From positions 744,001 to 808,000 of the forward strand of contig NZ_JAQFFK010000003.1 of assembly GCF_027594145.1 (NCBI RefSeq): DNA of 64,000 bases, in the 5' to 3' direction. The notes under the pieces were generated by a model that had not been told where the DNA came from, made no database searches, and saw only the letters and a program-made list of their open reading frames with translations. This stretch comes from Methanococcoides alaskense. Its GTDB lineage: Archaea > Halobacteriota > Methanosarcinia > Methanosarcinales > Methanosarcinaceae. Both the position numbers and the translations under genes were made by a program. Shown one piece after another: positions 378 to 27,807 of the stretch. Within the stretch, counting starts at the first letter, position 1, and each line of letters starts with the position of its first letter.

Positions 378-1985
378 ATGAATATTGACACAAAGATCAT
401 AAATTTGATTGAGTCTGGAGCACCTATCATCCAGATTATAAGTTATGAGACTTTGAGAATTCATGCATCACTGATTGAAGCTGCTTCAAAAACAGGAAGA
501 AGTGCATATGTATGGAATAGAACTGAGGGTCTCTGTGAATTGGATCAGAATGGTCAATTGATAGAAAAAGATGAAGAAATGAGAGATCCATCATCTATTC
601 TTGAATGGTTCACTGAAGATGAATCAGAAGAGTCCTTATTATTGCTTGAAGATTTTCATCCAGATCTTACCGAGCAACAACCACATATTATCAACAGGTT
701 GCGATGTATTGCACGTAGGATTTTAACGCAACAATTGAATGATCGAACTTTATTATTATCTCAACCCATACGGTATTTACCTCTTGAACTTGAAAAAGAT
801 GTGCAAGTACTAGAACTACCATTACCAGGGAATAGCGAGATAAAACAAATAATGCGGAGTGTAAGACAGCGATTTGGTTTGCATGAACGTGACTATCAAG
901 AATCATCTAGATTGATAGAAGCAGCACTTGGTCTTACGACCAGTGAAGCATCCCTAGCATTCTCTATGGCTGCTGTAGAAAATAAAAGACTGACGGATGA
1001 TGAAATTCCTTTAATCGCGGCAGAAAAAGAACAAGTGATAAAAAAACGCGGTCATCTTGAATTTTATCAACCAGATCAGGGATTGAATGATATTGGTGGT
1101 CTTGGCAGGTTAAAGGACTGGTTGGAACGTAGGGAGAGAGCATTTACAGAAGATGCAAGAGACTTCGGTCTAGAGTCACCAAGAGGGATACTACTTCTGG
1201 GTCTACCAGGTACTGGAAAAAGCCTAGCTGCAAAAGCAGTTTCGAGTGCATGGCAACTTCCTTTATTAAGATTGGATATGGGTCGTGTATTTGGGGGAAT
1301 TGTTGGGCAATCAGAAGAAAATATACGGGCTGCATTGAGTACAGCTGAAGCATTGGCACCCTGTGTTCTCTGGATTGATGAAATTGAAAAGGGAATGGCT
1401 GGAGCACAAAGCTCTGGTTCAACCGATGGTGGAACAACATCTCGTGTCCTTGGGACGTTCCTTACATGGATGCAGGAAAAGACAAAACCTGTATTCGTAC
1501 TTGCAACTGCAAATAACATCTCTCAGTTACCTCCTGAATTGCTCAGAAAAGGGCGTGTCGATGAAATCTTTTTTGTAGATTTGCCTGATGCAGATGATCG
1601 TAAAGATATAATTCGTATTCATCTTCGAAAACGCCGTCGAAATTCTGATCACTTCACTAATGAAGAATTGGAAAATCTAGTAGACATATCACGTGGGTTT
1701 ACAGGAGCTGAACTTGAAGAAGCGGTAAAAGAAGCAATGTTTAGAGCTTTTGATTATGGGAGGGAATTAACTGCAGATGATCTGGAAGATGCTATAAATG
1801 ATACTACTCCACTTTCCCATACAATGAGAGAAGTTATCCAATCCACGCGACAATGGGCAAAAGGGCGTGCAGTACCAGCAAGTGATAGAGAACCGGAATT
1901 GTTAGACAAAATTGATTCAAGGTCCAAGCAACCTAGGTTACGTCAAGAGATCGATAACCCATTTATCACGAATCCCAAGGAGTAA
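378..1985 (+). CDS. AAA+ ATPase of the Ycf46 type
   Basis: The 535-residue protein has an N-terminal region of about 230 residues that starts like plastid/cyanobacterial Ycf46 (INLIESGAPIIQIISYE), then a full AAA+ module. Walker A (GLPGTGKS) is at about 274-281, Walker B (LWIDEIEKG) near 332, sensor-1 (ATANN) near 378, and the arginine-finger segment RKGRVD follows. A C-terminal helical lid runs to about 480. Such proteins remodel protein or nucleic-acid complexes using ATP; the client is unknown. It is the first gene of the operon and is only 3 bases from the helicase gene. Companions with Ycf35/DUF1257 and DUF2997 features downstream strengthen the Ycf46 call, since these families co-occur in cyanobacteria. 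Start ATG has a GAGGT site. Confidence 0.85.
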   Translation: MNIDTKIINLIESGAPIIQIISYETLRIHASLIEAASKTGRSAYVWNRTEGLCELDQNGQLIEKDEEMRDPSSILEWFTEDESEESLLLLEDFHPDLTEQQPHIINRLRCIARRILTQQLNDRTLLLSQPIRYLPLELEKDVQVLELPLPGNSEIKQIMRSVRQRFGLHERDYQESSRLIEAALGLTTSEASLAFSMAAVENKRLTDDEIPLIAAEKEQVIKKRGHLEFYQPDQGLNDIGGLGRLKDWLERRERAFTEDARDFGLESPRGILLLGLPGTGKSLAAKAVSSAWQLPLLRLDMGRVFGGIVGQSEENIRAALSTAEALAPCVLWIDEIEKGMAGAQSSGSTDGGTTSRVLGTFLTWMQEKTKPVFVLATANNISQLPPELLRKGRVDEIFFVDLPDADDRKDIIRIHLRKRRRNSDHFTNEELENLVDISRGFTGAELEEAVKEAMFRAFDYGRELTADDLEDAINDTTPLSHTMREVIQSTRQWAKGRAVPASDREPELLDKIDSRSKQPRLRQEIDNPFITNPKE

Positions 1986-1988
1986 GAT

Positions 1989-4900
1989 ATGAGTTCTTCA
2001 ATCGGTCATTATATTGCAATGGGTGTGGAAGATCCTGTTTCTTTCATGGAGTTCACGAAAAAAGGCATTGATCCTTTTACAGGCTACTTAAAAAATGTGA
2101 TTGATGCTTCGCAGAACAAAGAAGTGAGTTGTCAGTGGGAGAGAGTTGAAAAAGATCGTTTCATTTTAAAGCCTTTAACACGAATATATGAGGTACATCC
2201 TGAAACTTTAATTGAACTTAAACCACCTGAAACGGGCTGGTATAAGGTAGAACCAATAAGTCTTAATGAAGGTGAAAATTTTGATCCGGATACTGAACAG
2301 CCTCTTCTTATTGGAAGAGGACGCAATGCTCTTAAAAAACCCCTCACTGATGAAAATGTTCGCCAGACATCCACTGGGTTTTGGCAAATAAAGTTAGAGG
2401 ATTTTCAAAATAATGGAGAAGCAATAAGCTGGTCAGCTTATGAACTTTCATTGGTACAAATTCAAGACCCTCTTGAAAGTAATAACCATACTTTTAGTTT
2501 GCATGGAAACTCGATACTATCCCGTAGGGAAAACGAAAGCTGGCGATTTTGGGTACAATTTGATCTGACTTCTGAACACCCTATAGAAGTCAATGGGCTG
2601 CAGTGTGATTATCGAGTAATCCGACGTTTCAATGTTGAGGATTTTCAAAGTAAATATCGTGATCATGTTTCATCAGGTATTTTTTGGAAAGTATCTGACA
2701 TCAAAAAACCACACATTACATGTGCTAAAATCATTGATATAACTGAAAATGAGTTGAAACAGCTTTCAGTAGAAGATCTAGAACTAAATTTAGAATCTTC
2801 AAATAATGAAATTTGGAATCTTCAGAAAGGAAAAGGTAAAAATGAGTGCCTTTTGCTTTATAAGGGAACTGATGAGGGAATAAAATTACCCGAAAAAATA
2901 AAGCACATTGATATTCCAAACTGGAATTTTTCGTGCCATAAACATAAAAACAATGAAAAATGGATACAGTTATTAGAACCAGAAGATGCAAATGAAACAA
3001 ATCCTTCTGGTTCAATACTTGAACATTTTTTTAGTGATCAGGTAACTTTACATGATTCTGAAGGCAAATTTAAGAGAGAAAGACAACTTTATGTGCTCAA
3101 GCGCAATTATGATGAAAAAAAACTTCTTATATCATATAAAAAAAATGGACCATCTGCTTTACCGCGTAATGTCGAATTACATTTAAGGGTTGATATTGGG
3201 CAGGTTCGAAATCAGCGAGATACCGCATTTCAGTTATTAGATTACCCATATCCAGATCATCTTCCACTTCTTGAGCTTTTCAAACCTCGAAATCAACACC
3301 AATGGCCATCATTTGACCCCGTATCAGAAAATAATATTGACTGGCAAGTACTTACTGATCTCTCTTTTAAGGGGTGTGATCACCAACGTGAGTTTGTGTG
3401 TAAAGCTCTTGCAACCCCTGATTTTGCAATAATGGACGGTCCACCTGGAACTGGAAAGACAACTACTATACTTGAGCTCATTATTCAATTAATAGATAGA
3501 GGCAAACGAGTTTTACTTGCTGCATCTACACATGCAGCAATTAATAATGTGCTTGAAAGGTTGCAGGAAAAAGGATATACTGAAAAAGTATACGCCACTC
3601 GTATAGGTCTCGAGGATAGAGCCATAGGTTTGGAAAATTTTGTTTTGGATAGGCAGGTCGAAAATTGGTCTGATTCACTTGATCTAGATGAAGTTGCATG
3701 CAGACAGATGGTAATGGAAAGTGCAAACCTTGTTTGTGGAACAACAATGGGAATACATAGTTTGTTGCGAAATCGATCAATGGATCTTAATCTTGAGCGT
3801 AATGGTCCTCCTTTCGATTTAATGATCATTGATGAATGTAGCAAAACTACATTTCATGAATTTATTGTTCCTGCAAGACTTGCAAAACGCTGGATTCTGG
3901 TTGGTGATATTAAACAACTTTCACCTTTTACTGATCGCGAGCAAATAACAGCGAATTTAGACAAACTTGTCTTATACAGAAAAAGGGATTCACCACCTGA
4001 AATATTATCTGGTGCTCTTCAAGAAGCATGCAAGGTATTGCACATATTATATCCATATAAAGATAAATTAGTAGTACCTTTTTCTAAAAAAGTAATTCAA
4101 GAAATTAAAAAAGAAATTGATGCAAGATTATCCGATGATAGGTATTTAGATACTGACCATTTTAATAATATATTAATAATTTCAGAAAAAATCGATCTGT
4201 TAAACATATTACCGCTTTATGAGCATAATGTGTTATTCATCGATAAAGATCTATTAAATGAATATAGAGAGTGGATGCCACACGATTCAATAATTATTGA
4301 AAATAACTGGTTACAGACAGCCCATGCATGTAGAAATTTTGCAAATAATAATTGGTATAATAGCAACATATACCTCCAGCGTGGTAATCGAATAACTAAG
4401 GCAGATGACGTTTATAAGCAAATTTATAACTCCCTTGATTCCAGTTGGTCAGAAGAGCTTTGTTGGAGACTTGAACGCGAATATTGGTTACGATTTATCA
4501 CAAATGATCTCGGAAAATTAAACAGTATACAAAAGCAATTGAACCGACTTTTTCCATACAGTGAAAGAGCAATTAATCGAATATATCAATTGAGGAACAT
4601 TGCATTTCCCTCCATCCTTGAATCACTATCTGGTAGTGGCATGATCAAGCGCAGAGATGATGATCCAACGACACTTACTAAAGGATTTAATGAGCAAGAA
4701 CGAGATTGCCGTCATACTACATTGAATTATCAACATCGTATGCATCCTGACATTTCAAAATTACCTCGTGAACTGTTTTATTCTTCACAAAATCGAAATA
4801 AAGCAATTTCTTTACTTGATGGTGATCGTGTTTGCAAAGATTTGAATTGGAAATATGATCACTATAGTGAACATAAAATCTGGTTGAACGTTAATGGAAA

Positions 4901-5360
4901 TGTTGTCAAAAACTCCAATGAAAGAGAAGCAGAAACGATTGCTAAAGAGCTGGATACATTCTGTAACTGGGCAAAACATAATCCAAAGGATGATAATAGT
5001 CCTTGGGAAGTAGCAGTATTGACTTTCTATAAAGGTCAAGAAAAATGCTTGCGTGATCATTTACGAAAGCTTTCCGATGATGATACAAGGTACAGTCGTT
5101 TTGAAAAACATGATGTACAGATAAAATTAGCAACAGTTGATTTCTTCCAGGGACAGGAAGCAGACCTTGTCTTTCTTTCAATGGTAAATACTAATAGAGA
5201 CGGCTTTCTTGACAGTCCGAATCGTCTCAATGTTGCGATTACGAGAGCGAGATATCAATTAGTCATAGTTGGCCATCATGACTATTTTGCAAAGAGATCT
5301 TCAGCAGAATTGAAACAATTAGCTAAGCAGAGTAAAAGGATGGAATTGCATGGAAATTGA
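1989..5360 (+). CDS. Large SF1 (UPF1/DNA2-like, COG1112 type) helicase
   Basis: The 1123-residue protein contains a superfamily 1B helicase core. Walker A (GPPGTGKTTT) is at about 484-493, motif II is DECS near 614 followed by the GDIKQLSPF motif III, and the C-terminal motifs FFQGQEAD and NVAITRAR lie at about 1050-1090. The first 480 residues have no motif I recognise and may be a nucleic-acid or partner-binding region. About 250 residues between motif III and the QHRMHP-like motif form a large insertion. DECS instead of DEAS/DEAA is unusual. The gene follows the AAA+ ATPase by 3 bases and overlaps the next gene by 11 bases, so co-translation is likely. The DNA/RNA preference cannot be told from sequence. 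A role in defence or repair is inferred from context. Confidence 0.85.
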   Translation: MSSSIGHYIAMGVEDPVSFMEFTKKGIDPFTGYLKNVIDASQNKEVSCQWERVEKDRFILKPLTRIYEVHPETLIELKPPETGWYKVEPISLNEGENFDPDTEQPLLIGRGRNALKKPLTDENVRQTSTGFWQIKLEDFQNNGEAISWSAYELSLVQIQDPLESNNHTFSLHGNSILSRRENESWRFWVQFDLTSEHPIEVNGLQCDYRVIRRFNVEDFQSKYRDHVSSGIFWKVSDIKKPHITCAKIIDITENELKQLSVEDLELNLESSNNEIWNLQKGKGKNECLLLYKGTDEGIKLPEKIKHIDIPNWNFSCHKHKNNEKWIQLLEPEDANETNPSGSILEHFFSDQVTLHDSEGKFKRERQLYVLKRNYDEKKLLISYKKNGPSALPRNVELHLRVDIGQVRNQRDTAFQLLDYPYPDHLPLLELFKPRNQHQWPSFDPVSENNIDWQVLTDLSFKGCDHQREFVCKALATPDFAIMDGPPGTGKTTTILELIIQLIDRGKRVLLAASTHAAINNVLERLQEKGYTEKVYATRIGLEDRAIGLENFVLDRQVENWSDSLDLDEVACRQMVMESANLVCGTTMGIHSLLRNRSMDLNLERNGPPFDLMIIDECSKTTFHEFIVPARLAKRWILVGDIKQLSPFTDREQITANLDKLVLYRKRDSPPEILSGALQEACKVLHILYPYKDKLVVPFSKKVIQEIKKEIDARLSDDRYLDTDHFNNILIISEKIDLLNILPLYEHNVLFIDKDLLNEYREWMPHDSIIIENNWLQTAHACRNFANNNWYNSNIYLQRGNRITKADDVYKQIYNSLDSSWSEELCWRLEREYWLRFITNDLGKLNSIQKQLNRLFPYSERAINRIYQLRNIAFPSILESLSGSGMIKRRDDDPTTLTKGFNEQERDCRHTTLNYQHRMHPDISKLPRELFYSSQNRNKAISLLDGDRVCKDLNWKYDHYSEHKIWLNVNGNVVKNSNEREAETIAKELDTFCNWAKHNPKDDNSPWEVAVLTFYKGQEKCLRDHLRKLSDDDTRYSRFEKHDVQIKLATVDFFQGQEADLVFLSMVNTNRDGFLDSPNRLNVAITRARYQLVIVGHHDYFAKRSSAELKQLAKQSKRMELHGN

Positions 5361-6882
5361 GTTGAAACGTACTATACAAATGGAACGTTGTGAGGTGATT
5401 GGAAGATTGAAGGTCGAACAAAAACGACTTGATCTGAAACTATTACTTGAACGTTTAGAACAAAAGCAGATCAAAGAACTTCCACAGCGATTGAATGATC
5501 TACTTTGTAAATTACAATTATATGAATCAGGTACTATTCTAGAATCTGGAAAAATACTGTTGGACAAAGGCACTGTCCTTACTGAAGAATATGGTCATTA
5601 TGAAGTGTGGTATCTTTGTAACGATGAATGGCTTGGTTCTCAACCAGTATCTATTCGCCGTATTAGTGCTAAGAACAAAAAGGAACAAAATACTGGTAAA
5701 AAGAAAGGGAATTGGGAACGGAATATTCCGACTGAAAAACAATTTTCTAAAAATGAGTCAATTCCTATACATTTTTACAAAGAAGAAGGAATGCATAATC
5801 TTTCACTAATGGAAGTTGATGCAATATTACCACAGCAAAACCAGACCCAAGGGTCATTGTTCTGTAAACTTAATAACGAAGGGTATTCATCGATCGAAAT
5901 AACTTCAAAAGTTAAATGGGGACATGAGAATTCACCAGAGAATATATACGTGGATTTGGATTGGAAACCTGAGAAAGTGTATAAGCTATTACCTGAAATT
6001 GCAGAACAAATAGGTAAAGAATGGGACTTTACAAATGAGGCACTGTTGGAAGATTATCCTCCAGAGATTGAAGATGAACTTATTAAATATAAGCGCAAAG
6101 AACACGCTCTTTCTAAGATAAAAACTAAGAGTGCAGGTTCTTTTGAAAATATCAAAATTAAGGATATGAAATTACGTGCAGGCTCAAGAAGATGTGCTGA
6201 AAATTGGTTGCAAAATCTAATGAGAATAAAATGGTCGGAATCATACACCTCAATTCAAGATACTTTGGACGATCAAAAAGAATGGCTTAATTGTGTTGCT
6301 TTGAAAAATTATGATTTAGAGCCTCTGGAAGGGGAAAAATTATTAGAATTTATGGATCGAAATGCTTGCAAAAAAGCATACTGGCATATTGCAGCATTAC
6401 ATGACCTTATACCTTCTGGCGTAAAAGCAAGATCATTGGCTTTTACACTTCGAGAGTCAGATATGGATCCTATTAGTAATATAAGTTCACGACTTGGAAT
6501 TGGACAATCTGTAAACGAAGTTAGCATTATAGATCGTTATGCGAGTAAAGAAAATCAAATTCTTACCATTCAGAGAATCTGTCACAGATTAAATGTTAGT
6601 AGTGTGTCTCTAATTACCTTAAAGCAACCTGAAAGTCTACCTAAAGGTTGGAAGTACATAAGTATGGGAAAAAAGAACCCGGATAATCATGATCGGTACT
6701 GGTGTATTAAGAGTAATAATCGTTGGGAAATTTGGAAATGTAGTACATCTCCTGATTTTTTAAGCTTTGAAAATAACAATGTATCAGTAAGGGCATCTGC
6801 TACTTTTACTCCTCTTGATGGTGAAGATATTCCAACTTCTATCTCTAAGCACTTAAAAACAATTGAAGAGGTTACTATATGA
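5350..6882 (+). CDS. Protein with C-terminal phospholipase-D-like (MIT_C-like) domain
   Basis: I do not recognise the full 510-residue protein. The N-terminal ~60 residues are predicted coiled coil. The C-terminal ~120 residues have the layout of a PLD-like fold related to the MIT_C domain: a VSIIDRYASKENQ strand-helix start near 392, then NHDRYWCI near 449 and a WKCSTSPDF segment near 467. An HDRY motif replaces the HxK of classical phospholipase D. This could bind phosphorylated substrates or act as a nuclease; neither is shown. The ATG lies inside the end of the helicase gene and the stop overlaps the next start by 4 bases (ATGA), indicating strict co-expression in the operon. Confidence 0.6.
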   Translation: MEIELKRTIQMERCEVIGRLKVEQKRLDLKLLLERLEQKQIKELPQRLNDLLCKLQLYESGTILESGKILLDKGTVLTEEYGHYEVWYLCNDEWLGSQPVSIRRISAKNKKEQNTGKKKGNWERNIPTEKQFSKNESIPIHFYKEEGMHNLSLMEVDAILPQQNQTQGSLFCKLNNEGYSSIEITSKVKWGHENSPENIYVDLDWKPEKVYKLLPEIAEQIGKEWDFTNEALLEDYPPEIEDELIKYKRKEHALSKIKTKSAGSFENIKIKDMKLRAGSRRCAENWLQNLMRIKWSESYTSIQDTLDDQKEWLNCVALKNYDLEPLEGEKLLEFMDRNACKKAYWHIAALHDLIPSGVKARSLAFTLRESDMDPISNISSRLGIGQSVNEVSIIDRYASKENQILTIQRICHRLNVSSVSLITLKQPESLPKGWKYISMGKKNPDNHDRYWCIKSNNRWEIWKCSTSPDFLSFENNNVSVRASATFTPLDGEDIPTSISKHLKTIEEVTI

Positions 6883-8894
6883 TCGCACCAAAAGAAGACC
6901 AAATAAACGTTGATCAGAGCCAATTACTCTTTCCTTATATTTTCACTCCACTTTTTTCGAATCAAGTAACTGATCGATTAGATGATGTGATTAGTAATAT
7001 ATCACCCAAAGCAACATTATTTATGGCTATTGACAAGCTTGACGACGAGTCGCTTATAAGACTTCTCCAAAAGAAAGCAGATGAGGGTGTTCGTGTTTAT
7101 TTGCTTTTAGGAGACTTAGGTATAAATTCAGACTCAGTTGAACGACTATCTGGTAGGTGTCTGATACGTTGTGGGGTTCCTCAAAATGGTGTTTTAGTCT
7201 TACAGGACATGGGGGCAAATAACATTCAAGGTTGGATAATTTCCGACCATTTTAGAACTCATAGTCTTGAATTGAGTACAAGCCAATGTGATGATATTTA
7301 CCGTGTATTTTGTTATCTTTTTTGGAAAAAAGCAACTCATGAGTGCATGGAGCAAAATGTATCTGCTTCACATATAGATGGGTCTCCTATAGGAGAAATT
7401 CAACTAAATGACAAATATAACCTTCCTGAAAAATTTTCAGAAGCCACCGCTAGAGATGTTGACGTCGTAGAATTTGGCAGTGCTCACTACTGGTCAAAGG
7501 ACTTGCTATGGAATTTTTTACCTTTCGGAAAGGCAAAAGGGAATCTATTGTTGCATTTGTCTAAAAGTAATAATCTTCCATCCATTGAGGAACTATGCAA
7601 TAACAACAATGTGAATGTTCGTTTCAGTACACAAAGACTAAGAAATATCTTAATTACATCAGATGGAGGGTGGTATTTACCAAATATTCCTGATGCTACA
7701 AAGGTAAATTGGGCTATGCGCATAGATCGCGATCAAAAGAATAAGTTACTTGATTCTTTGAAAGCTGAATGGGGAGATGCAGAATGGGAACTCAATCGAG
7801 ATATATGTCTTGGAGATCTCAAAAGTTCTGTACGTTTTGCCGATAGTCCTAGTAAAGTTCATGATGTTGTCGAAAAAATGTCTATTGACCTAGAAGCAAT
7901 TGAAGCTCCTAATTTTGAGACTTTTCTTGAACCTGATTTTGAAGAATTGTTCAGGGATCAAACACAATTTGATAAAGATAGATTATCATATTTAGTAGAG
8001 TACACAGCTAGACTTTATCCTCCACTTTTACCAGATAATGCAAAAATTGATCCACTGGTGCAACAATGGAATTCTGACCAAGAGGTGTGGACAGAGAATA
8101 TAGTTTTTTTAAGAAAGAATCTGGATGAGCTTGAACAATTTGAAAATGGTCTGAATGAAAAAATTAAGAAGAAATTATTGCAGCCTTTGATTGCGCAGCA
8201 GCAGAAAGTTTCTGAATTTAAAAGCAGACTCAACGAGTTGAATAATGTCGATCTTGGACGTAGTTCTCCTTCACATCTTAATAAGTGGACAAATGAATTA
8301 GTAGAATTAGATTCTGAAATAAAAAAACGTATTTCAAATAATCAAAGGCAAAAAAATCAAACTCGTAAAGAGATAGAGTGGGAAGATAAATGCAAAAAAA
8401 TAAGTGATGATATTTCAACTTTAGAAAATAAGATTGTAAAACAGGAAGATGAAATTAAAGTTTCTGAAAGCAAAACTAAAGAAACAGAAGAAAAACTAAG
8501 CAAAGCAGAAGATAATAAGCAGAAGAAAAATATCAAAAAAGAACTGGATAAATGTAAAAAACGTGAAAAGGCAGCTATCTCATCTTTTGATAAATTAAAA
8601 ATCGAATTATCGAAGCTTCAATCACAAAGAAAAGAACTTGGAGATCATTTTGTTCATAAAAACGATGAAAGTGCTGAAGACGGCAAAGCTCTTGGTATTG
8701 TTCTTGGTAATAAAGAAATTGAAGGACGTTTTATTCGAAAATGGAGAGATGAATTCCTTCCACCAGAAGGAATGGAATTATACTCTTATGACAACAAAAG
8801 ATGGCTTGTTATCGAAAATCTTGAACAGATAAGGGAAGCTAAGCATCATGCATCGGCTCTTAATGCTGAGATATGTGCTAAGCGAGGTGATTAA
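6879..8894 (+). CDS. PLD-like N-terminal region with long coiled coil, operon partner
   Basis: The 671-residue protein is not one I can name. Residues ~25-135 read as an alternating strand-helix unit (ADEGVRVYLLLGD, then NGVLVLQDMG and GWIISDHF) with the rhythm of a phospholipase-D half domain, but the His and Lys of HxKxxxxD are missing, so it may be a binding rather than catalytic domain. Residues ~420-600 are a charged coiled coil rich in Lys and Glu. A compact C-terminal domain (~620-671) follows. The coiled coil suggests a scaffold or arm joining helicase and ATPase. Start overlaps the previous stop (ATGA); the next gene starts 2 bases after this stop. Confidence 0.55.
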   Translation: MIAPKEDQINVDQSQLLFPYIFTPLFSNQVTDRLDDVISNISPKATLFMAIDKLDDESLIRLLQKKADEGVRVYLLLGDLGINSDSVERLSGRCLIRCGVPQNGVLVLQDMGANNIQGWIISDHFRTHSLELSTSQCDDIYRVFCYLFWKKATHECMEQNVSASHIDGSPIGEIQLNDKYNLPEKFSEATARDVDVVEFGSAHYWSKDLLWNFLPFGKAKGNLLLHLSKSNNLPSIEELCNNNNVNVRFSTQRLRNILITSDGGWYLPNIPDATKVNWAMRIDRDQKNKLLDSLKAEWGDAEWELNRDICLGDLKSSVRFADSPSKVHDVVEKMSIDLEAIEAPNFETFLEPDFEELFRDQTQFDKDRLSYLVEYTARLYPPLLPDNAKIDPLVQQWNSDQEVWTENIVFLRKNLDELEQFENGLNEKIKKKLLQPLIAQQQKVSEFKSRLNELNNVDLGRSSPSHLNKWTNELVELDSEIKKRISNNQRQKNQTRKEIEWEDKCKKISDDISTLENKIVKQEDEIKVSESKTKETEEKLSKAEDNKQKKNIKKELDKCKKREKAAISSFDKLKIELSKLQSQRKELGDHFVHKNDESAEDGKALGIVLGNKEIEGRFIRKWRDEFLPPEGMELYSYDNKRWLVIENLEQIREAKHHASALNAEICAKRGD

Positions 8895-8896
8895 TT

Positions 8897-9109
8897 TTGG
8901 CAGAACAAAGGATTACTATTGAAATAGATGAAGAAGGCAAGATCACAGCAAAAACGTCTGGATTCAAAGGTGAAGCTTGCCTGAATGAGCTTCAGAAGCT
9001 ACTGGATGAAGAGTTAAGTCCATCGGCCCTAAAACCGACTGATGATTTCTACCAAAAAGATACGATCATCTCTCAACAAAAGCAATCAATAGGTGGGAAA
9101 CAACTATGA
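8897..9109 (+). CDS. Small DUF2997-like protein (TTG start)
   Basis: The 70-residue protein has an N-terminal beta hairpin (RITIEIDEEGKITAKTSGF) and a GEACLNEL helix, the pattern of the DUF2997 family found beside DUF1257 and Ycf46-type ATPases. The start is a TTG at 8897: an AGGTGA ribosome binding site lies 6 bases upstream and no in-frame ATG precedes the conserved start of the fold. The stop overlaps the next ATG (ATGA), implying translational coupling. Function is unknown; a small adaptor or carrier-like role is possible because of the conserved cysteine in GEAC and the exposed C-terminal tail. Confidence 0.7.
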   Translation: MAEQRITIEIDEEGKITAKTSGFKGEACLNELQKLLDEELSPSALKPTDDFYQKDTIISQQKQSIGGKQL

Positions 9110-9576
9110 GTGCAGTTGTTAAAACAGTTACACCATTTACAAATCAAGATATTCTTTTAGAAGCATTGGATGAATTGGGAGTTGAATACAATGTTGAGGG
9201 TACTAGAATAATCACAGATCGGAAGGATTACTATGGTCATCAGAGCTTTGAGCTGGGTAAAAATGGCGCCTTTAATTTTCAACATGATTCAAGTGCTGAA
9301 ATAACAAATTATCCATGGACCTCTATCAATTTCCGTGAATGGAAGACGGTGACAAGCTTTTTGAATGCTGTTGAAAAAGCATATAAAAATGCTTATGGTC
9401 AAATGATTGAAAGGTTGGCAGAAGAAGAGAGAATACGTGAGGAAGAAATAAAAAAACAGTATGTTGAGAAAATACGTAATGAGACGATTGATCGTGCTAA
9501 AGGACAGGGATATATGATTAAAGAAAGCAGGCAAGGAAATAAAGTAAAGCTTGTTCTTACTCGTACAGTATACTGA
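9106..9576 (+). CDS. Ycf35/DUF1257-like protein
   Basis: The 156-residue protein matches the layout of the Ycf35 (DUF1257) family: an N-terminal domain of about 95 residues, a charged helix rich in Glu and Arg (about 100-130), and a C-terminal beta strand pair with the typical RAKGQGYMIKES and KLVLTR signatures. The N-terminal part (DELGVEYNVEGTRIITDR) resembles the family's ferredoxin-like half. No catalytic residues are evident. In cyanobacteria and plastids Ycf35 is uncharacterised. Start ATG has an AGGTGGG site and overlaps the DUF2997-like stop. Its presence next to a Ycf46-type ATPase and a radical-SAM protein suggests a conserved complex. Confidence 0.75.
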   Translation: MSAVVKTVTPFTNQDILLEALDELGVEYNVEGTRIITDRKDYYGHQSFELGKNGAFNFQHDSSAEITNYPWTSINFREWKTVTSFLNAVEKAYKNAYGQMIERLAEEERIREEEIKKQYVEKIRNETIDRAKGQGYMIKESRQGNKVKLVLTRTVY

Positions 9577-9589
9577 TAGGAGTTCTTTG

Positions 9590-10174
9590 ATGCAAGAGCA
9601 TGGAACATGTTTCAATATTGCTCACATTGAGCATGGCAGTGAAATTTACGGTCCTGGGAAACGTTTTGTGATCTGGTTCCAGGGTTGTTCTCTTGCATGT
9701 CCAGGCTGCTGGAATAAATCGATGTGGAGTTTTGAGCCATGTAATTTGGTTGAAAGAGAAAAACTTTTGCATGAGATTCTAGCTTATTCTGAATTGGATG
9801 GGTTAACAGTTCTTGGTGGTGAACCCCTAGAACAAGCACATAATCTGTACTGGCTGTTAACATCTCTCCAGGAAAAGAATGTAAGTGTAATGCTTTATAC
9901 AGGATATCAAATGGATGAGATCAAAAACGATAATCTTAAATCTAAAATATGTGAAATGGCTGATATTTTAGTATCTGGTAGGTATAAAGAAGATGAACGC
10001 GATTTAAATTTGAAGTGGAGAGGTTCGCGAAACCAAATATTGCTTGTCCAGAATGAAATTTATAATGATCTTGATCTAGATGATGGGACAAATCAAGTAG
10101 AGATAACAATTGATGAATTCGGGACAATTAATGTTCTTGGATATCCTGATGATGATCTTTGTTCAATCTTATGA
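9590..10174 (+). CDS. Small radical-SAM activase-like protein (NrdG/4Fe-4S single-cluster type)
   Basis: The 194-residue protein carries the radical-SAM cluster motif as Cys33-x3-Cys37-x2-Cys40 (QGCSLACPGCW), followed by LTVLGGEPL near 75, the usual GGEP motif that contacts S-adenosylmethionine. Length and order match anaerobic ribonucleotide reductase activases and related glycyl-radical activases. No glycyl-radical enzyme is nearby, so its target is probably an operon partner. I chose ATG 9590 over an upstream frame start at 9551: a TAGGAG site lies about 7 bases before 9590, and the longer version would overlap DUF1257 by 26 bases. It is the last gene of the operon. Confidence 0.8.
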   Translation: MQEHGTCFNIAHIEHGSEIYGPGKRFVIWFQGCSLACPGCWNKSMWSFEPCNLVEREKLLHEILAYSELDGLTVLGGEPLEQAHNLYWLLTSLQEKNVSVMLYTGYQMDEIKNDNLKSKICEMADILVSGRYKEDERDLNLKWRGSRNQILLVQNEIYNDLDLDDGTNQVEITIDEFGTINVLGYPDDDLCSIL

Positions 10175-10432
10175 TGCATTATAAAAATTCTATATATTCT
10201 TGATTAGTTAACACAATTGCTTTATTCAGCCATCATAATTGATTACTTAATAACTCAGGGTCAACAATCCATCCCTCAAGTAAATCACAATTTTCAGGCA
10301 TCTCATGCCCGGCTTCCAGTTAATGTAGTGTTTGTTGCAATTGTTTAATCCAATTTCAGGCTAATTTGGTTAACTTTCGTGGATTCTGGTGGTTTTTATC
10401 GGATTATCGGAGTAATATGGTTGGGTAGAGGC
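10175..10432. repeat. Degenerate end of a winged-helix gene relic (minus-strand sense)
   Basis: No open frame is credible here. The stretch at about 10335-10400, read on the minus strand, resembles 15825-15895 inside the winged-helix gene at 15254-16369: both contain the TTAACC/TTAATC and GTTGCAAC blocks in the same order. This marks the start of a decayed paralogue that continues through the 74-bp repeat array. Confidence 0.5.
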
Positions 10433-23352: not shown

Positions 23353-26300
23353 ATGTTCAAAAAAAGAGAAATTCCATGGTTGAATGTAATTCAATTTCAT
23401 AAAGAAATTGTTCAAATGGACCGGGATAATTTTTTCTCACTCCCATTGGGGAACAAAGAACAGTTAAACTCTCATCGATGGACTTTGATTGACAATTTTC
23501 TTATTGAAGATATGGCAGGTCCATGGGAAATCTCGTATGAATCTGTTACTAGTAAACCATTATTAGAGGCTATATCAAACAAAAATATAATTGAAGGTTA
23601 TCTTGGTGGTCCATGTTGGGTAAATTCTAAAAGAGGACAAAATTCATTCTCAGATTATCTAAATCCACTTTTTTATATAAGTGTCAAACTTGAACTGGAT
23701 GAAGGACTTATCCGAATAATACCTAGTGAAGGAAGTTGGGATATATCCCCAATGATATATGATATTTTGACTAAAGGTGAAATTGAGCCTGAAAAGTCAC
23801 TTGAAGATATGACACATGAAGTCATTGAAAAAGCCCATGCTATTTCCGATCAAAATGAACAAAGTCTTTCTCTGAATCTCCTCAATGAATTATTTAAGCA
23901 AATACCAGAGCTTGAAACAATATTAACCAAAAAATCTCTTAAAAACGAAAAATTAAAACTCATAAACCACCCATGGACATTTTTTCTTCCACCAACGTCT
24001 AGCTCTCCATATACACATCACATTCTACGAGATTATTCCGAACTTGAACAAAAATTAAGAGAAAATTCCTCTGAAATAGGTGGATTAAAGTTACTTGAAT
24101 CTTTAACTTCTTCCCAAAATGAAAACAAGGCAGAGCTACTTCCCATAGTTCCTCTTAATGATTCACAAAGAATGGCAGTTTCTGAAATCTTAAAATCAAA
24201 ACCAGTTACTGTCATTAGTGGACCCCCTGGATGCGGAAAAAGTCAAGTTGTTGTATCCTTACTTCTTAATGCATGGGCAAATGATATTAGTGTACTATTT
24301 TCAAGTACAACAAATGCTGCAGTCGATGTAGTATATGATAGGCTTTCTGATTTTGATTGTGAGTACCCTATTGCAATACGTGCAGGAACAAGGTATAAAA
24401 GTAACATAGATGAGGCATTCAGGAAGCTTCTGAATAATGTCTCTGCAAACACTATACATTCTAAATTGAAGAAAACTGAAACACATATTCACGAACTCAG
24501 CTCTAAAAAAGAAGATATGCAGGCGTTTCTTGACGAAAAGATTCCACAAGAAATAACAGAGGCACTTAGATCAGCATTAACATCTCATGCGGATTTTCTT
24601 GAAAGAAAGAAAGAACTTGGGCTAGAGATAGAACCTTTCTCTCTCAAAATAAATTCAATCGGCTACAATTTAACTCCTGAATTTTTCACAGGAGCACTTT
24701 TAATTCCATTTCAAAAGTGGATGGAAGAGATTAAACAATATGAGTATCAAATTGAACTTGATTCTCAACAAAGAATTGAGATCCAAAATAAATTAGACTC
24801 TTCTATAAGGGATAGAAATGTATCATTAAATAGACTTTTCTTAAATCCAAATACCCTTAACAATTTCGATTGGATTATTGAAGAACATGGTCCTGAAAAA
24901 TTTGAAAAATGGCTTAAATCTTATCAATCTTTGATTAATCAATCAGTATCTGGATATCTAGATCCAATAGAGATGAAAGAAGAATTCCTTGAATGGCAAG
25001 GGGAAACGGAAGCTCTTGAATGGATAAATAATGCAGATAAATTGCTAAAAGAAAACCAGACGATATTTACAAATTATTCTAAGCAGCATAGAAGCATAAA
25101 TGAAATCAGAATCAAATACGATAACAAAAGAAATGAAATAATTTCTGCAGGGTTGTCAGAAAGTACAAATTATGACAAAAATAAGATACTAAAATGGAAA
25201 TCAGATTATGCTTACCTTTCTTCAATTCCAAGTGGTATAATTAACATCTTCAAAAAGAAAAAAGCCAATAAACAAATTCAGAAAACTGAAGAAGAAATCC
25301 GAGAATATTATCCAGTAGAAATTTGGACTAATTTTAGTGAAAGTGAACAGAAAGGACGAAAGTTGCTTAATGATTCAATTGACCTAACCATTAGTTGGCT
25401 TGAGATTCAAAGAGAATGGTATTCTCTAAAAGAGTTATGGGACGATATTGAAAATGAGTTTATAGCAATTCAAAGTAAAGCCCTTGAGTTAGATTTATCT
25501 CAAAAAGTAGATGTTGTTGATAATAGCACTCTGTTAAAACTCAACAATGAAATCGAACTAAAGAAAAAGCTAGCTTTCCAGGCTGCAAATACATGGGAAG
25601 CAAAACAAAAAGCTGATACGATTGAGCACAATTTAGTACAGGCTTCACAAGAATTCCAACATTTTTTGATAAGTACCCCTTTACTTGATTCTTGGATGAA
25701 CTATAATGATTCAGAGTTTTCAAAAACAGTTTTGTCTTTACTACCTCGTCCGATTTTAGAAACTGTAACTATTGCTCAACGCACCTTAAATGATACTAGA
25801 TTTGAAGATTTATTTTCATTCTGGAAAGCTGCAAGGGAATCTGAAAATAAAGTTCAAGATTACATCAAAATCATCAATCAAATTCCTTTGGATAAGATTA
25901 AAATTGCGACATGGTGGAATAGAAAACCATCCATGATTACAGTTGAAAAATTAGATTACTCATTGCTTCCTCAGAAAGATGATCTTCTATGGAATCATTT
26001 AGAAGAGTGCAAAAAGATAGCGAACGAATGGAAGGAATGCTCTGAAACAGTTCTTAAAATTAAAGAAAAAGAAATGAAAGAGGCTTATGAGTGGGCGATC
26101 AAGTACCTGATGGTTGCTATGAACAAAACTCCTGAACATATGGGAAAAGAACATATTAAATCTGTTACTTTACCACTTGTTAAACAGTCAATTGATTCTT
26201 GGCCAATTGATGAATTAAACGAAATATTTCTTGAGTTGGATCCTGATCGTATCAAAGGTAAAATCAATAAAATTGATTCTGAATTAGAAGCTCTGTCTTT

Positions 26301-27807
26301 CACTCTTGCAAAAGAATGGTGGGTAAAAAGAGTTGTTAATGATGGAGATATTTTAAGGAGTGCAGAAGATTTATACAACCATTACAGAAGAAACAACAAT
26401 AAGATTAAGGGTTTCTCCTCTGAAAAATTCCAAAAAGCCTTATCATCAGTTCCAATTTGGACCACGACCGCTCTTTCTCCTCAATCAATTCCAATGGAAC
26501 CTGAAATATTTGATTTGCTTGTGATTGATGAGGCATCTCAATGTACACTTACCAATGTTCTTCCTCTCATATATCGTGCTAAAAGAATTGCAATCATAGG
26601 GGATCCAGATCAATTACCTGCAATACCCAATGTGAATGTAGGGAAAGAATTGGCTCTTGCATCCAAGCATGAAGTTTCAAAGTGGTTGGACTTACTTGGG
26701 CATAGTAATAATAATGTGTTTCAAATAGGTGTCTATTGTCTTCCGGGTGGCAGGCCAGAAATAATTTCATTAATAGAACATTATCGAAGTCATCCTTTAA
26801 TTATTGGTTTTTCAAATCACTACATATATCAAAAACGATTGAAACTAAAAAAAGAACTGATACGTGAAAATACAACAGCGTCTCAATCTGGTCTTTTCGG
26901 AAGAAATGTTCTTGGGACTTGTGATAAAGGCAGTGGAGGTAAAAGTTGGGTTAATCCAAAAGAAATTGAATCCATATGTGAATTGATACAAAATATTCAG
27001 GATAATGATGGATTGAGTCACCTAAGTATCGGTGTAGTGTCTCCATTTGCTGCACAGGTCAAAGGAATACAAAAAAAACTGTATGAATTAAATCTGGACA
27101 ATGATATAACAGTTGGAACCGCACATACATTTCAGGGTGATGAACGCGATATAATCATTTTTAGTCCAGTTATTGCTAGAGGAATGACAAAAGGAGCTAT
27201 CAAATTTGCAAATTCACCAAATCTTATTAACGTATCACTAACAAGAGCACGTGAAGCCCTTTTTGTTGTTGGGGACTTTAAATATTGTAAAAAAAGTGGT
27301 GGAATTGTAGAAAATCTTATCAAGTACATTGATACGATTATGCTATTAAGGGATACAAGTAGGGAAGAATTAGAACTTTTTAGCTGGTTGATCATAGAGG
27401 GCCTAACTCCAAAGGTGCATGAAAAGATTGGTGGAATTGAAGTCGATTTTGTACTCACTAACAAATCTTTAGGTATTAAATTGGTAATTGAGGTTGATGG
27501 AAAGCAGCATTACTTTGCTGAAATTAATGGAAAAAAATATGCCATCAAATTTGAAGTAAACCACAGATATATCGAAGTTGAGAATGAAAAAGTTTACATT
27601 CAAAATCATGGTGTCCAAGAATTCGCTGAGATCAAAGGTACTTCATACCCAGTTACTCAAACAATGGAGTCTATAAAAGAAGACAATATTCGTGATGAAT
27701 TTTTAAAAGGCCAAGGTTTTAGAGTTCTAAGAGTGCCAGCAAAAGCTGTTAGAGAAACACCAACTAACGTGATTACAAGAATAAAAGAACATTTAGAGAT
27801 TGTATGA
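23353..27807 (+). CDS. SF1 helicase fused to a DUF559/Vsr-like nuclease (probable defence protein)
   Basis: The 1484-residue protein has an N-terminal domain of ~250 residues, SF1 helicase motif I (SGPPGCGKS) near 289, a ~750-residue insertion rich in coiled coil, motif II (LLVIDEASQ) near 1057 with GDPDQLPAI after it, motif V (TAHTFQGDERD) near 1255, motif VI (VSLTRARE) near 1297, and a C-terminal nuclease domain (~1375-1480) with IEVDGKQHY and RDEFLKGQGFRVLRV, the signature of DUF559/Vsr-type endonucleases. This architecture (COG1112 type plus nuclease) recurs in prokaryotic defence islands. Start ATG 23353 lacks a ribosome binding site. It stands alone in plus orientation between an hsdM relic and surface genes. 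Antiviral activity is inferred. Confidence 0.8.
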   Translation: MFKKREIPWLNVIQFHKEIVQMDRDNFFSLPLGNKEQLNSHRWTLIDNFLIEDMAGPWEISYESVTSKPLLEAISNKNIIEGYLGGPCWVNSKRGQNSFSDYLNPLFYISVKLELDEGLIRIIPSEGSWDISPMIYDILTKGEIEPEKSLEDMTHEVIEKAHAISDQNEQSLSLNLLNELFKQIPELETILTKKSLKNEKLKLINHPWTFFLPPTSSSPYTHHILRDYSELEQKLRENSSEIGGLKLLESLTSSQNENKAELLPIVPLNDSQRMAVSEILKSKPVTVISGPPGCGKSQVVVSLLLNAWANDISVLFSSTTNAAVDVVYDRLSDFDCEYPIAIRAGTRYKSNIDEAFRKLLNNVSANTIHSKLKKTETHIHELSSKKEDMQAFLDEKIPQEITEALRSALTSHADFLERKKELGLEIEPFSLKINSIGYNLTPEFFTGALLIPFQKWMEEIKQYEYQIELDSQQRIEIQNKLDSSIRDRNVSLNRLFLNPNTLNNFDWIIEEHGPEKFEKWLKSYQSLINQSVSGYLDPIEMKEEFLEWQGETEALEWINNADKLLKENQTIFTNYSKQHRSINEIRIKYDNKRNEIISAGLSESTNYDKNKILKWKSDYAYLSSIPSGIINIFKKKKANKQIQKTEEEIREYYPVEIWTNFSESEQKGRKLLNDSIDLTISWLEIQREWYSLKELWDDIENEFIAIQSKALELDLSQKVDVVDNSTLLKLNNEIELKKKLAFQAANTWEAKQKADTIEHNLVQASQEFQHFLISTPLLDSWMNYNDSEFSKTVLSLLPRPILETVTIAQRTLNDTRFEDLFSFWKAARESENKVQDYIKIINQIPLDKIKIATWWNRKPSMITVEKLDYSLLPQKDDLLWNHLEECKKIANEWKECSETVLKIKEKEMKEAYEWAIKYLMVAMNKTPEHMGKEHIKSVTLPLVKQSIDSWPIDELNEIFLELDPDRIKGKINKIDSELEALSFTLAKEWWVKRVVNDGDILRSAEDLYNHYRRNNNKIKGFSSEKFQKALSSVPIWTTTALSPQSIPMEPEIFDLLVIDEASQCTLTNVLPLIYRAKRIAIIGDPDQLPAIPNVNVGKELALASKHEVSKWLDLLGHSNNNVFQIGVYCLPGGRPEIISLIEHYRSHPLIIGFSNHYIYQKRLKLKKELIRENTTASQSGLFGRNVLGTCDKGSGGKSWVNPKEIESICELIQNIQDNDGLSHLSIGVVSPFAAQVKGIQKKLYELNLDNDITVGTAHTFQGDERDIIIFSPVIARGMTKGAIKFANSPNLINVSLTRAREALFVVGDFKYCKKSGGIVENLIKYIDTIMLLRDTSREELELFSWLIIEGLTPKVHEKIGGIEVDFVLTNKSLGIKLVIEVDGKQHYFAEINGKKYAIKFEVNHRYIEVENEKVYIQNHGVQEFAEIKGTSYPVTQTMESIKEDNIRDEFLKGQGFRVLRVPAKAVRETPTNVITRIKEHLEIV

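Follow-up and report, generated by a model that had tools for sequence, protein, structure and literature searches.

What brings a UPF1-like helicase, proteins related to phospholipase D (PLD) and a radical S-adenosylmethionine (SAM) enzyme together in one archaeal operon? The question is raised by a 64,000-nucleotide stretch of Methanococcoides alaskense DNA (assembly GCF_027594145.1, contig NZ_JAQFFK010000003.1, positions 744,001 to 808,000 of the forward strand; hereafter the window), in which seven genes on the plus strand occupy positions 378 to 10174. A preliminary description, made from the sequence alone, regarded them as a single nucleic-acid-targeting machine. Our analysis revealed that the operon consists of two modules, each of which also occurs without the other. 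The first, the trio, encodes a UPF1-like superfamily 1 (SF1) helicase (P2, 1989..5360), a protein with a C-terminal PLD-like domain carrying an HDRY motif (P3, 5350..6882) and a PLD-derived protein with a long coiled coil and no HKD motif (P4, 6879..8894). The second, the core, encodes a Ycf46-like, Cdc48-type AAA+ ATPase (P1, 378..1985), a small DUF2997 protein with a G-x-x-C motif (P5, 8897..9109), a putative DUF1257-like protein (P6, 9106..9576) and an activase-type radical-SAM enzyme with a CxxxCxxC motif (P7, 9590..10174). The operon has the look of a mobile system of the defence type that is as yet undescribed. Judged from sequence comparisons, it could be a horizontally mobile two-module immune-type system, directed at nucleic acids and gated by Ycf46, DUF2997 and the radical-SAM enzyme, a reading to which we give slightly less than an even chance. 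No description of the operon was found in the literature searched, which excluded subscription papers and supplements, and it is not named in the text examined of a paper on archaeal dark matter (PMC4158269).

Recurrence of the operon and separability of its modules

All seven genes, sometimes in a different order, were found together in 19 of the 41 loci compared, in Methanococcoides, other archaea, Bacteroidales, Pseudomonas and Myxococcota. The helicase and PLD-like genes recur with the Ycf46, DUF2997 and radical-SAM genes in two domains of life, and their association is not peculiar to the genome in which it was first noticed. Ten of the 41 loci had been selected because they carry the system or its helicase; the other 31 came from a P4-seeded set, and ten of these 31 held all seven genes. 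The P4-seeded survey was carried out because the first survey had begun from Ycf46. It covered 32 loci, i.e. all 19 new strong hits (E < 1e-25) and 13 of the 65 weak hits, and L263, which has no helicase, was excluded from the comparison; the remaining 52 weak hits, many of them matching the coiled coil only, lay outside this survey. Some loci are redundant (L104 is the same as L006, L025 is part of L024, and L106 and L232 are near-identical), and, besides the 19 complete loci, five others have decayed or are truncated where their contigs end (L117, L233, L237, L238 and L243).

Strong P4 matches were present in 4 of 393 genomes from the order of the Bacteroidales genome, 15 of 377 from the phylum of Paraliomyxa, 4 of 227 from one archaeal phylum and 1 of 8 from the genus of Pseudomonas sp. 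A-1. Core genes accompanied P4 in 14 of the 19 new strong-hit loci and were lacking in four (L245-L248), while the contig of L249 ends at P4. When genomes were scanned with Ycf46, the helicase lay near Ycf46 in seven loci among the best 80 of 565 relatives, a selection whose counts are not frequencies. One IMG/VR contig also carries the operon; plasmid searches with P3, P4 and P6 were unproductive, as were scans of viral sequences with alignments of DUF2997 or of the helicase. The gene order in the archaeal loci L107 and L250 is helicase-P3-P4-radical SAM-Ycf46-DUF2997, and in L115 it is helicase-P3-P4-DUF2997-P6-radical SAM-Ycf46.

A search with P4 detected the operon in 3 of the 11 genomes of the genus (those of the window, G008 and G001) and in no other of 60 relatives; with a P6 profile, 392 genomes of the phylum yielded it twice, each time in Methanococcoides. 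In the helicase tree (40 rows, L261 being excluded as too short) Methanococcoides groups with Bacteroidales (97/96) and Pseudomonas nests in the Myxococcota group. Only 4 changes of the core label are needed on this tree, compared to 13.7 with shuffled labels. The finer points of the tree are unsafe, since three rows form long branches and the letter make-up is uneven. Taken at the level of these sequences, the system looks horizontally mobile, with transfer across domains. In keeping with the defence-type neighbourhood noted in the preliminary description, restriction-type genes (McrC, PF10117; NERD and UvrD) lie near one copy, L006, the McrC-family gene as a mere neighbour about 3 kb upstream of the operon. 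In addition, a Piwi/pAgo-like gene on the contig of archaeon Dive100 (L115:180-2276; PF02171 1e-22, PprPIWI 4e-25) overlaps the start of the helicase gene. Piwi, UPF1-like helicases and PLD-like proteins are protein types of the animal piRNA pathway.

Of the 41 loci, 17 contain the trio but no core (in L251 P3 is missing, and L249 is the locus cut by its contig end). Conversely, the core without the trio is found on plasmids of Paenibacillus, Paenarthrobacter and Rhodococcus, and with other partners in rumen and clostridial genomes and on IMG/VR contigs. The claim of one seven-gene machine therefore stands in part: a seven-gene system does recur, but it is built of two separable modules. Five core-less trios adjoin control-type genes, namely RtcR_PspF1 (2e-132, L258), CARF3 (4e-40, L261) and kinase or VWA genes; in the phylum of Paraliomyxa the latter follow the trio at L246:11799-13088, L247:10910-11698 (VWA) and L248:11684-12970. 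Because of these neighbours, the core may stand in for CARF, kinase or VWA control modules.

Probable PLD ancestry and block exchange of the trio

P2 matched the SF1 helicase families AAA_11/AAA_12 (PF13086/PF13087, best E = 2e-35), contains the Walker A motif GPPGTGKT and a DECS box, and has UPF1 as its best relative among solved structures (3e-25); against the PLuB helicase model NF040671 it scored 146 bits, the cut-off being 999 bits. P3 had no match in Pfam (E ≤ 0.001), NCBIfam or PADLOC. P4 matched no Pfam family at E ≤ 0.001, and its other matches were confined to the coiled coil, where it hit coiled-coil proteins (best LmuB, 5e-7). AlphaFold models of P3 and P4 (predicted local distance difference test scores of 76.6 and 72.1, respectively) were compared by Foldseek. 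The C-terminus of the P3 model matched MITD1 (E = 1e-4) and Tdp1 (0.03), and the P4 model matched PPK1, TrmBL2, NucT and Zucchini, all of which we take to be PLD-fold proteins, with E values of about 3.6e-3 to 7e-3 and none below 0.001. Each of these structure matches is modest alone, and profile comparison with a plasmid operon of Vibrio aerogenes (L018), which encodes the helicase closest to P2 among plasmid relatives, provides stronger support for a PLD origin. P3 aligned with the gene between the helicase and the PLD gene (hhalign probability 98.3, E = 2e-14) and P4 with the PLD protein (97.7, 2e-12). Both middle proteins thus look PLD-derived, and the fold ascribed to them in the preliminary description is supported by models and profiles.

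The Vibrio operon (helicase-hyp-PLD-RtcR_PspF) has homologues of the helicase, P3 and P4 in the same order. However, where the Methanococcoides operon has its four core genes, it has one gene for a CARF/sigma-54 regulator (CARF-AAA-HTH); none of the seven genes gave a CARF match in Pfam, PADLOC or NCBIfam searches. Moreover, the Vibrio PLD protein has only 510 residues and retains two HKD motifs, at 137 and 307, whereas P4 of the window has none. HKD was likewise absent from all 22 core-linked copies of P4 (0/14 and 0/8 in two readings; L107, in which stops or frameshifts interrupt the helicase and P4 genes, entered neither the count nor the tree). P4 is therefore no ordinary nuclease. In the more distant core-less trios, L251-L262, P4 is about 500 residues long and has at least one HKD-like motif in 12 of 12 cases. 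The HDRY of P3 lies at residue 447. A C-terminal HDR[FYH] motif was found in 13 of the 22 core-linked P3 copies (8 of 13 in one set; 4 of 7 in the other, plus L024 but not L114) and in none of the five core-less loci L245-L249. Since the motif is missing in nine core-linked copies, the HDR site of P3 cannot be the sole effector.

Comparison with the closely related locus of G008 (L006) uncovered an exchange of the trio within the genus. The DNA identity was 0.94-1.0 at window positions 451-1650 and 0.87-0.97 at 8851-10200, and it was 0.65-0.87 inside a block (1650..8735, plus strand), with a drop near 1650 and a recovery near 8735. The synonymous divergence (dS) was 0.95-1.03 in P2-P4 and 0.14-0.28 in P1, P5, P6, P7 and a flanking ribonuclease III-like gene; the latter served as the yardstick, another window gene having given no match in G008. 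Recombination has therefore replaced the trio as one block while the core was kept. This natural exchange marks the border between the two modules. It would be expected if the trio were the part under pressure from changing, putative targets. The flanking gene, divergently oriented upstream of the operon, encodes a ribonuclease III domain (PF00636, 2e-13 in L006) and is located at L001:437-1153 in the window's genome and at L006:3223-3942 in G008.

Core genes and the coupling of DUF2997 with the radical-SAM enzyme

The list of open reading frames agrees with the co-directional layout reported earlier (gaps of -11 to +13). The P7 frame is open from 9551, and its probable start is the internal ATG at 9590, the equivalent of the place where the relative in L007 begins; with this start the successive gaps are +3, -11, -4, +2, -4 and +13. 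Profile searches upheld most of the earlier gene assignments, including that of the SF1 helicase. P1 is CDC48-like (PF00004, 1e-29), with VCP-like ATPase/Cdc48/p97 as its closest solved structures, and is 96% and 87% identical to its counterparts in two Methanococcoides congeners. P5 passes the gathering score of PF11211 (2.5e-6; 27.7 bits versus 24.1). P7 matched the Fer4_12/radical SAM family PF13353 (4.6e-34) and, among solved structures, PFL-activase (2e-19), which agrees with an activase of the NrdG/PFL type. The DUF1257/Ycf35 label of P6 held less well: P6 has no Pfam match and did not reach the gathering score of PF06868, and a three-row DUF1257 profile aligned with it over 35 residues (hhalign probability 68.6). 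Together with the gene position, on which the label mainly depends, this gives weak support to a DUF1257-like protein. The names Ycf46 and Ycf35 for these proteins stem from the preliminary description; no search returned them.

Among the DUF2997 proteins, the Cys of G-x-x-C and one Gly were invariant in 65 of 65 sequences, 37 of which have a radical-SAM gene nearby. The two genes are also coupled in their occurrence. In the 45 of 80 Ycf46 loci with 6 kb available on both sides, radical SAM and DUF2997 occurred together in eight, DUF2997 alone in six, radical SAM alone in one and neither in 30 (p = 1e-4). In all 80 loci, within 9.5 kb, the corresponding numbers were 22, 10, 3 and 45. Thus, a radical-SAM gene near Ycf46 was accompanied by DUF2997 in 22 of 25 cases (8 of 9 in the smaller set), and two of the three exceptions lie on short contigs. 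Related loci do not count as independent observations, so the p values serve for orientation only. These patterns make DUF2997 the likeliest partner of P7, which would presumably modify it. The alternative idea that DUF2997 is a GG-tailed tag was rejected for lack of conservation of the tail Gly.

Several other gene arrangements around the core were recorded. On IMG/VR contigs L034, L036, L038, L040, L045 and L050, matches to Ycf46, DUF2997, radical SAM and the DUF1257-like protein are clustered, several of them beside shared families. One protein family recurs near radical SAM with core genes in L012, L031, L134, L155, L164, L165, L170, L178 and L182, and a helix-hairpin-helix protein is annotated at a similar place in Rhodococcus (L016); this family is a further partner of the core. 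A Pseudanabaena plasmid (L013:7583-15740) carries GrpE, Hsp70, DUF1257, DUF2997, Ycf46-like and WD40-repeat genes in one run without radical SAM. Other plasmids have operons of a helicase, a PIN protein, a hypothetical protein, a ClpB-like AAA+ protein and radical SAM, with no DUF2997 annotated (L014:2695-12606, L015:2623-12576 and L023:1-9597); here too an SF1 helicase and a nuclease are combined with an AAA+ protein and a radical-SAM enzyme resembling P7. Homology of P3 and P4 to the Polaromonas operon of this type was considered and rejected, as no profile matched.

A putative gated immune system and its alternatives

If the operon is a gated immune system, P2 would track on RNA or single-stranded DNA, P3 would serve as an adaptor, often with an HDR-type PLD domain, and P4 would be an HKD-less PLD coiled-coil scaffold that holds the complex together and binds nucleic acid. 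An infection or stress cue would cause P7 to modify DUF2997, most simply at or around the invariant Cys. The Cdc48-like Ycf46 ring, aided by P6, could then recognise or thread the modified DUF2997 and release or remodel the trio, which would attack or stall the nucleic acid of the invader. A related principle is described in the available text on the MoxR-vWA-FtsH ternary conflict systems, where an AAA+ ATPase occurs with a radical-SAM enzyme whose proposed substrate for modification is a small peptide (PMC7159879). However, that class is defined by MoxR and vWA proteins, and Pfam finds neither among the seven genes.

A number of observations weigh against the gated immune system. The Cys of DUF2997 was equally invariant in the 28 of 28 sequences without a radical-SAM gene nearby, so it need not be the target of the enzyme; in addition, the profile that collected these sequences itself held this Cys, and exceptions were perhaps missed. 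The loss of HKD, at first regarded as a strict mark of the core, was given up as such: among the nearer core-less loci L245-L249, four lack HKD and L248 has one doubtful match, so the loss is a feature of this P4 subfamily and not of the core alone. In the nine copies without HDR, no known catalytic nuclease motif was detected. P4 is broken in L107, which may reflect decay or an assembly error. When the nearest pair is compared, the trio has a ratio of nonsynonymous to synonymous change (omega) of 0.17-0.24 and thus no sign of diversifying selection, which, with dS raised as well, was rejected as the cause of the fast trio. A control-type neighbour was identified in only 5 of the 17 core-less trios, by a neighbour search that covered those five. 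Finally, the core is no marker of defence: DUF2997 is present in 37 of 80 Ycf46 loci on IMG/VR contigs, and on a Treponema succinifaciens plasmid (L010:11339-15563) radical SAM and a Ycf46-like gene, without the rest of the core, lie within a VgrG/baseplate cluster. The core alone often turns up in other company on phage contigs and plasmids, so its job is wider than the helicase machine.

These last points bear on the strongest alternative, that the core serves generally in protein maturation or redox chemistry (Fe-S or radical reactions on DUF2997, with Ycf46 as a chaperone) and that the trio merely uses this service. The varied partners of the core on plasmids, IMG/VR contigs and in bacterial genomes are in line with it. 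So is the cyanobacterial cluster in which DUF2997 sits with ycf35 and the ferredoxin gene fed7, which suggests a general redox role and thereby also counts against immunity; as in the operon, DUF2997 lies there beside a DUF1257 protein and an Fe-S protein, but the latter is a ferredoxin instead of a radical-SAM enzyme, and the portion of the source available lists no helicase or PLD-like genes (PMC4284462). On the other hand, some sister trios have signalling genes at the place of the core. The change of P4 in company with the core is a weak argument against maturation, since core-less near relatives also lost HKD. On balance, we regard a mere maturation service as unlikely, albeit ahead of the other alternatives.

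Next in order, and likewise unlikely in our judgement, is host RNA surveillance or repair under stress, in which the UPF1-like helicase and its PLD-like partners would act on damaged or stalled RNA and be triggered by redox stress through the Fe-S enzyme. RtcR-type regulators, known for RNA repair, adjoin sister trios, and UPF1 is the closest solved relative of P2. At the same time, a role of this kind is at odds with the patchy occurrence in the genus, cross-domain transfer and allelic block exchange, and with the restriction-type and Piwi neighbours, seen at one copy each.

It is very improbable that the operon is a plain member of the Mokosh or CoCoNuT (type IV restriction) class. The best PADLOC match of P2 is the MkoA helicase (9e-82), but this model is unspecific: the Vibrio helicase reached 8e-82 and a Polaromonas helicase 8e-102. 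The kinase beside one core-less trio matches the kinase part of MkoA (1e-7), and the Vibrio relative of P4 matches MkoB (4e-10) and DrmC (2e-27). Mokosh shares the helicase family and the idea of a PLD partner; the Methanococcoides operon adds the core and has lost HKD, and with neither P3 nor P4 matching MkoB or MkoC in PADLOC at E ≤ 1, membership was rejected. A separate protein of 1484 residues, encoded at 23353-27807 of the window, has MkoC/MkoA-like helicase regions (PADLOC, 4e-60) and is the second Mokosh-like helicase in the window. CoCoNuT types II and III, as described in the parts of PMC11090510 available, have a UPF1-like helicase (CnuH) followed by an adaptor or effector gene (CnuE), with a PLD effector in type III-C and associations with RtcR and TerY-P. 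P3 lies downstream of P2 and may correspond to this order, but none of the seven genes matches the McrB/McrC families, for which reason CoCoNuT membership was rejected too, and the term 'radical SAM' is absent from the main text of that paper.

P7 is also the nearest thing to NrdG in the window's genome (77% complete), where it is by far the best match to TIGR02491, at 113.7 bits against a cut-off of 126.1 that no protein passed in any of five genomes. The least credible reading, in which P7 is an anaerobic ribonucleotide reductase activase lying here by chance or places a glycyl radical on the DUF2997 tail (an idea taken from Gly-rich archaeal tails and the likeness of P7 to NrdG and PFL-activase), was rejected in both forms, because P7 stays below the NrdG cut-off, the operon-less congeners G005 and G010 have no comparable NrdG-like protein, and the tail Gly is not conserved in Rhodococcus and others. 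DUF2997 is likewise missing from these two congeners.

Returning to the gated immune system, a broader version of it, which we hold to be doubtful, is that Ycf46, DUF2997, the DUF1257-like protein and radical SAM form a portable immune signalling module: the radical-SAM enzyme would mark DUF2997, the Cdc48-like ring would read this mark, and any effector joined to the module would be unlocked, the plastid and cyanobacterial Ycf46/Ycf35 orphans being relics of the same switch. It is similarly doubtful, though conceivable, that such effectors include the helicase/PLD trio, the helix-hairpin-helix protein and a phage gene, with the module acting in place of CARF nucleotides or kinase/vWA switches. 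For the Ycf46, DUF2997 and Ycf35-type genes, orphans for a long time, the compact helicase operon provides a first experimentally tractable context. If the core does replace CARF, kinase or vWA switches, protein-modifying radical chemistry would be a further means by which microbial immune machines are armed.

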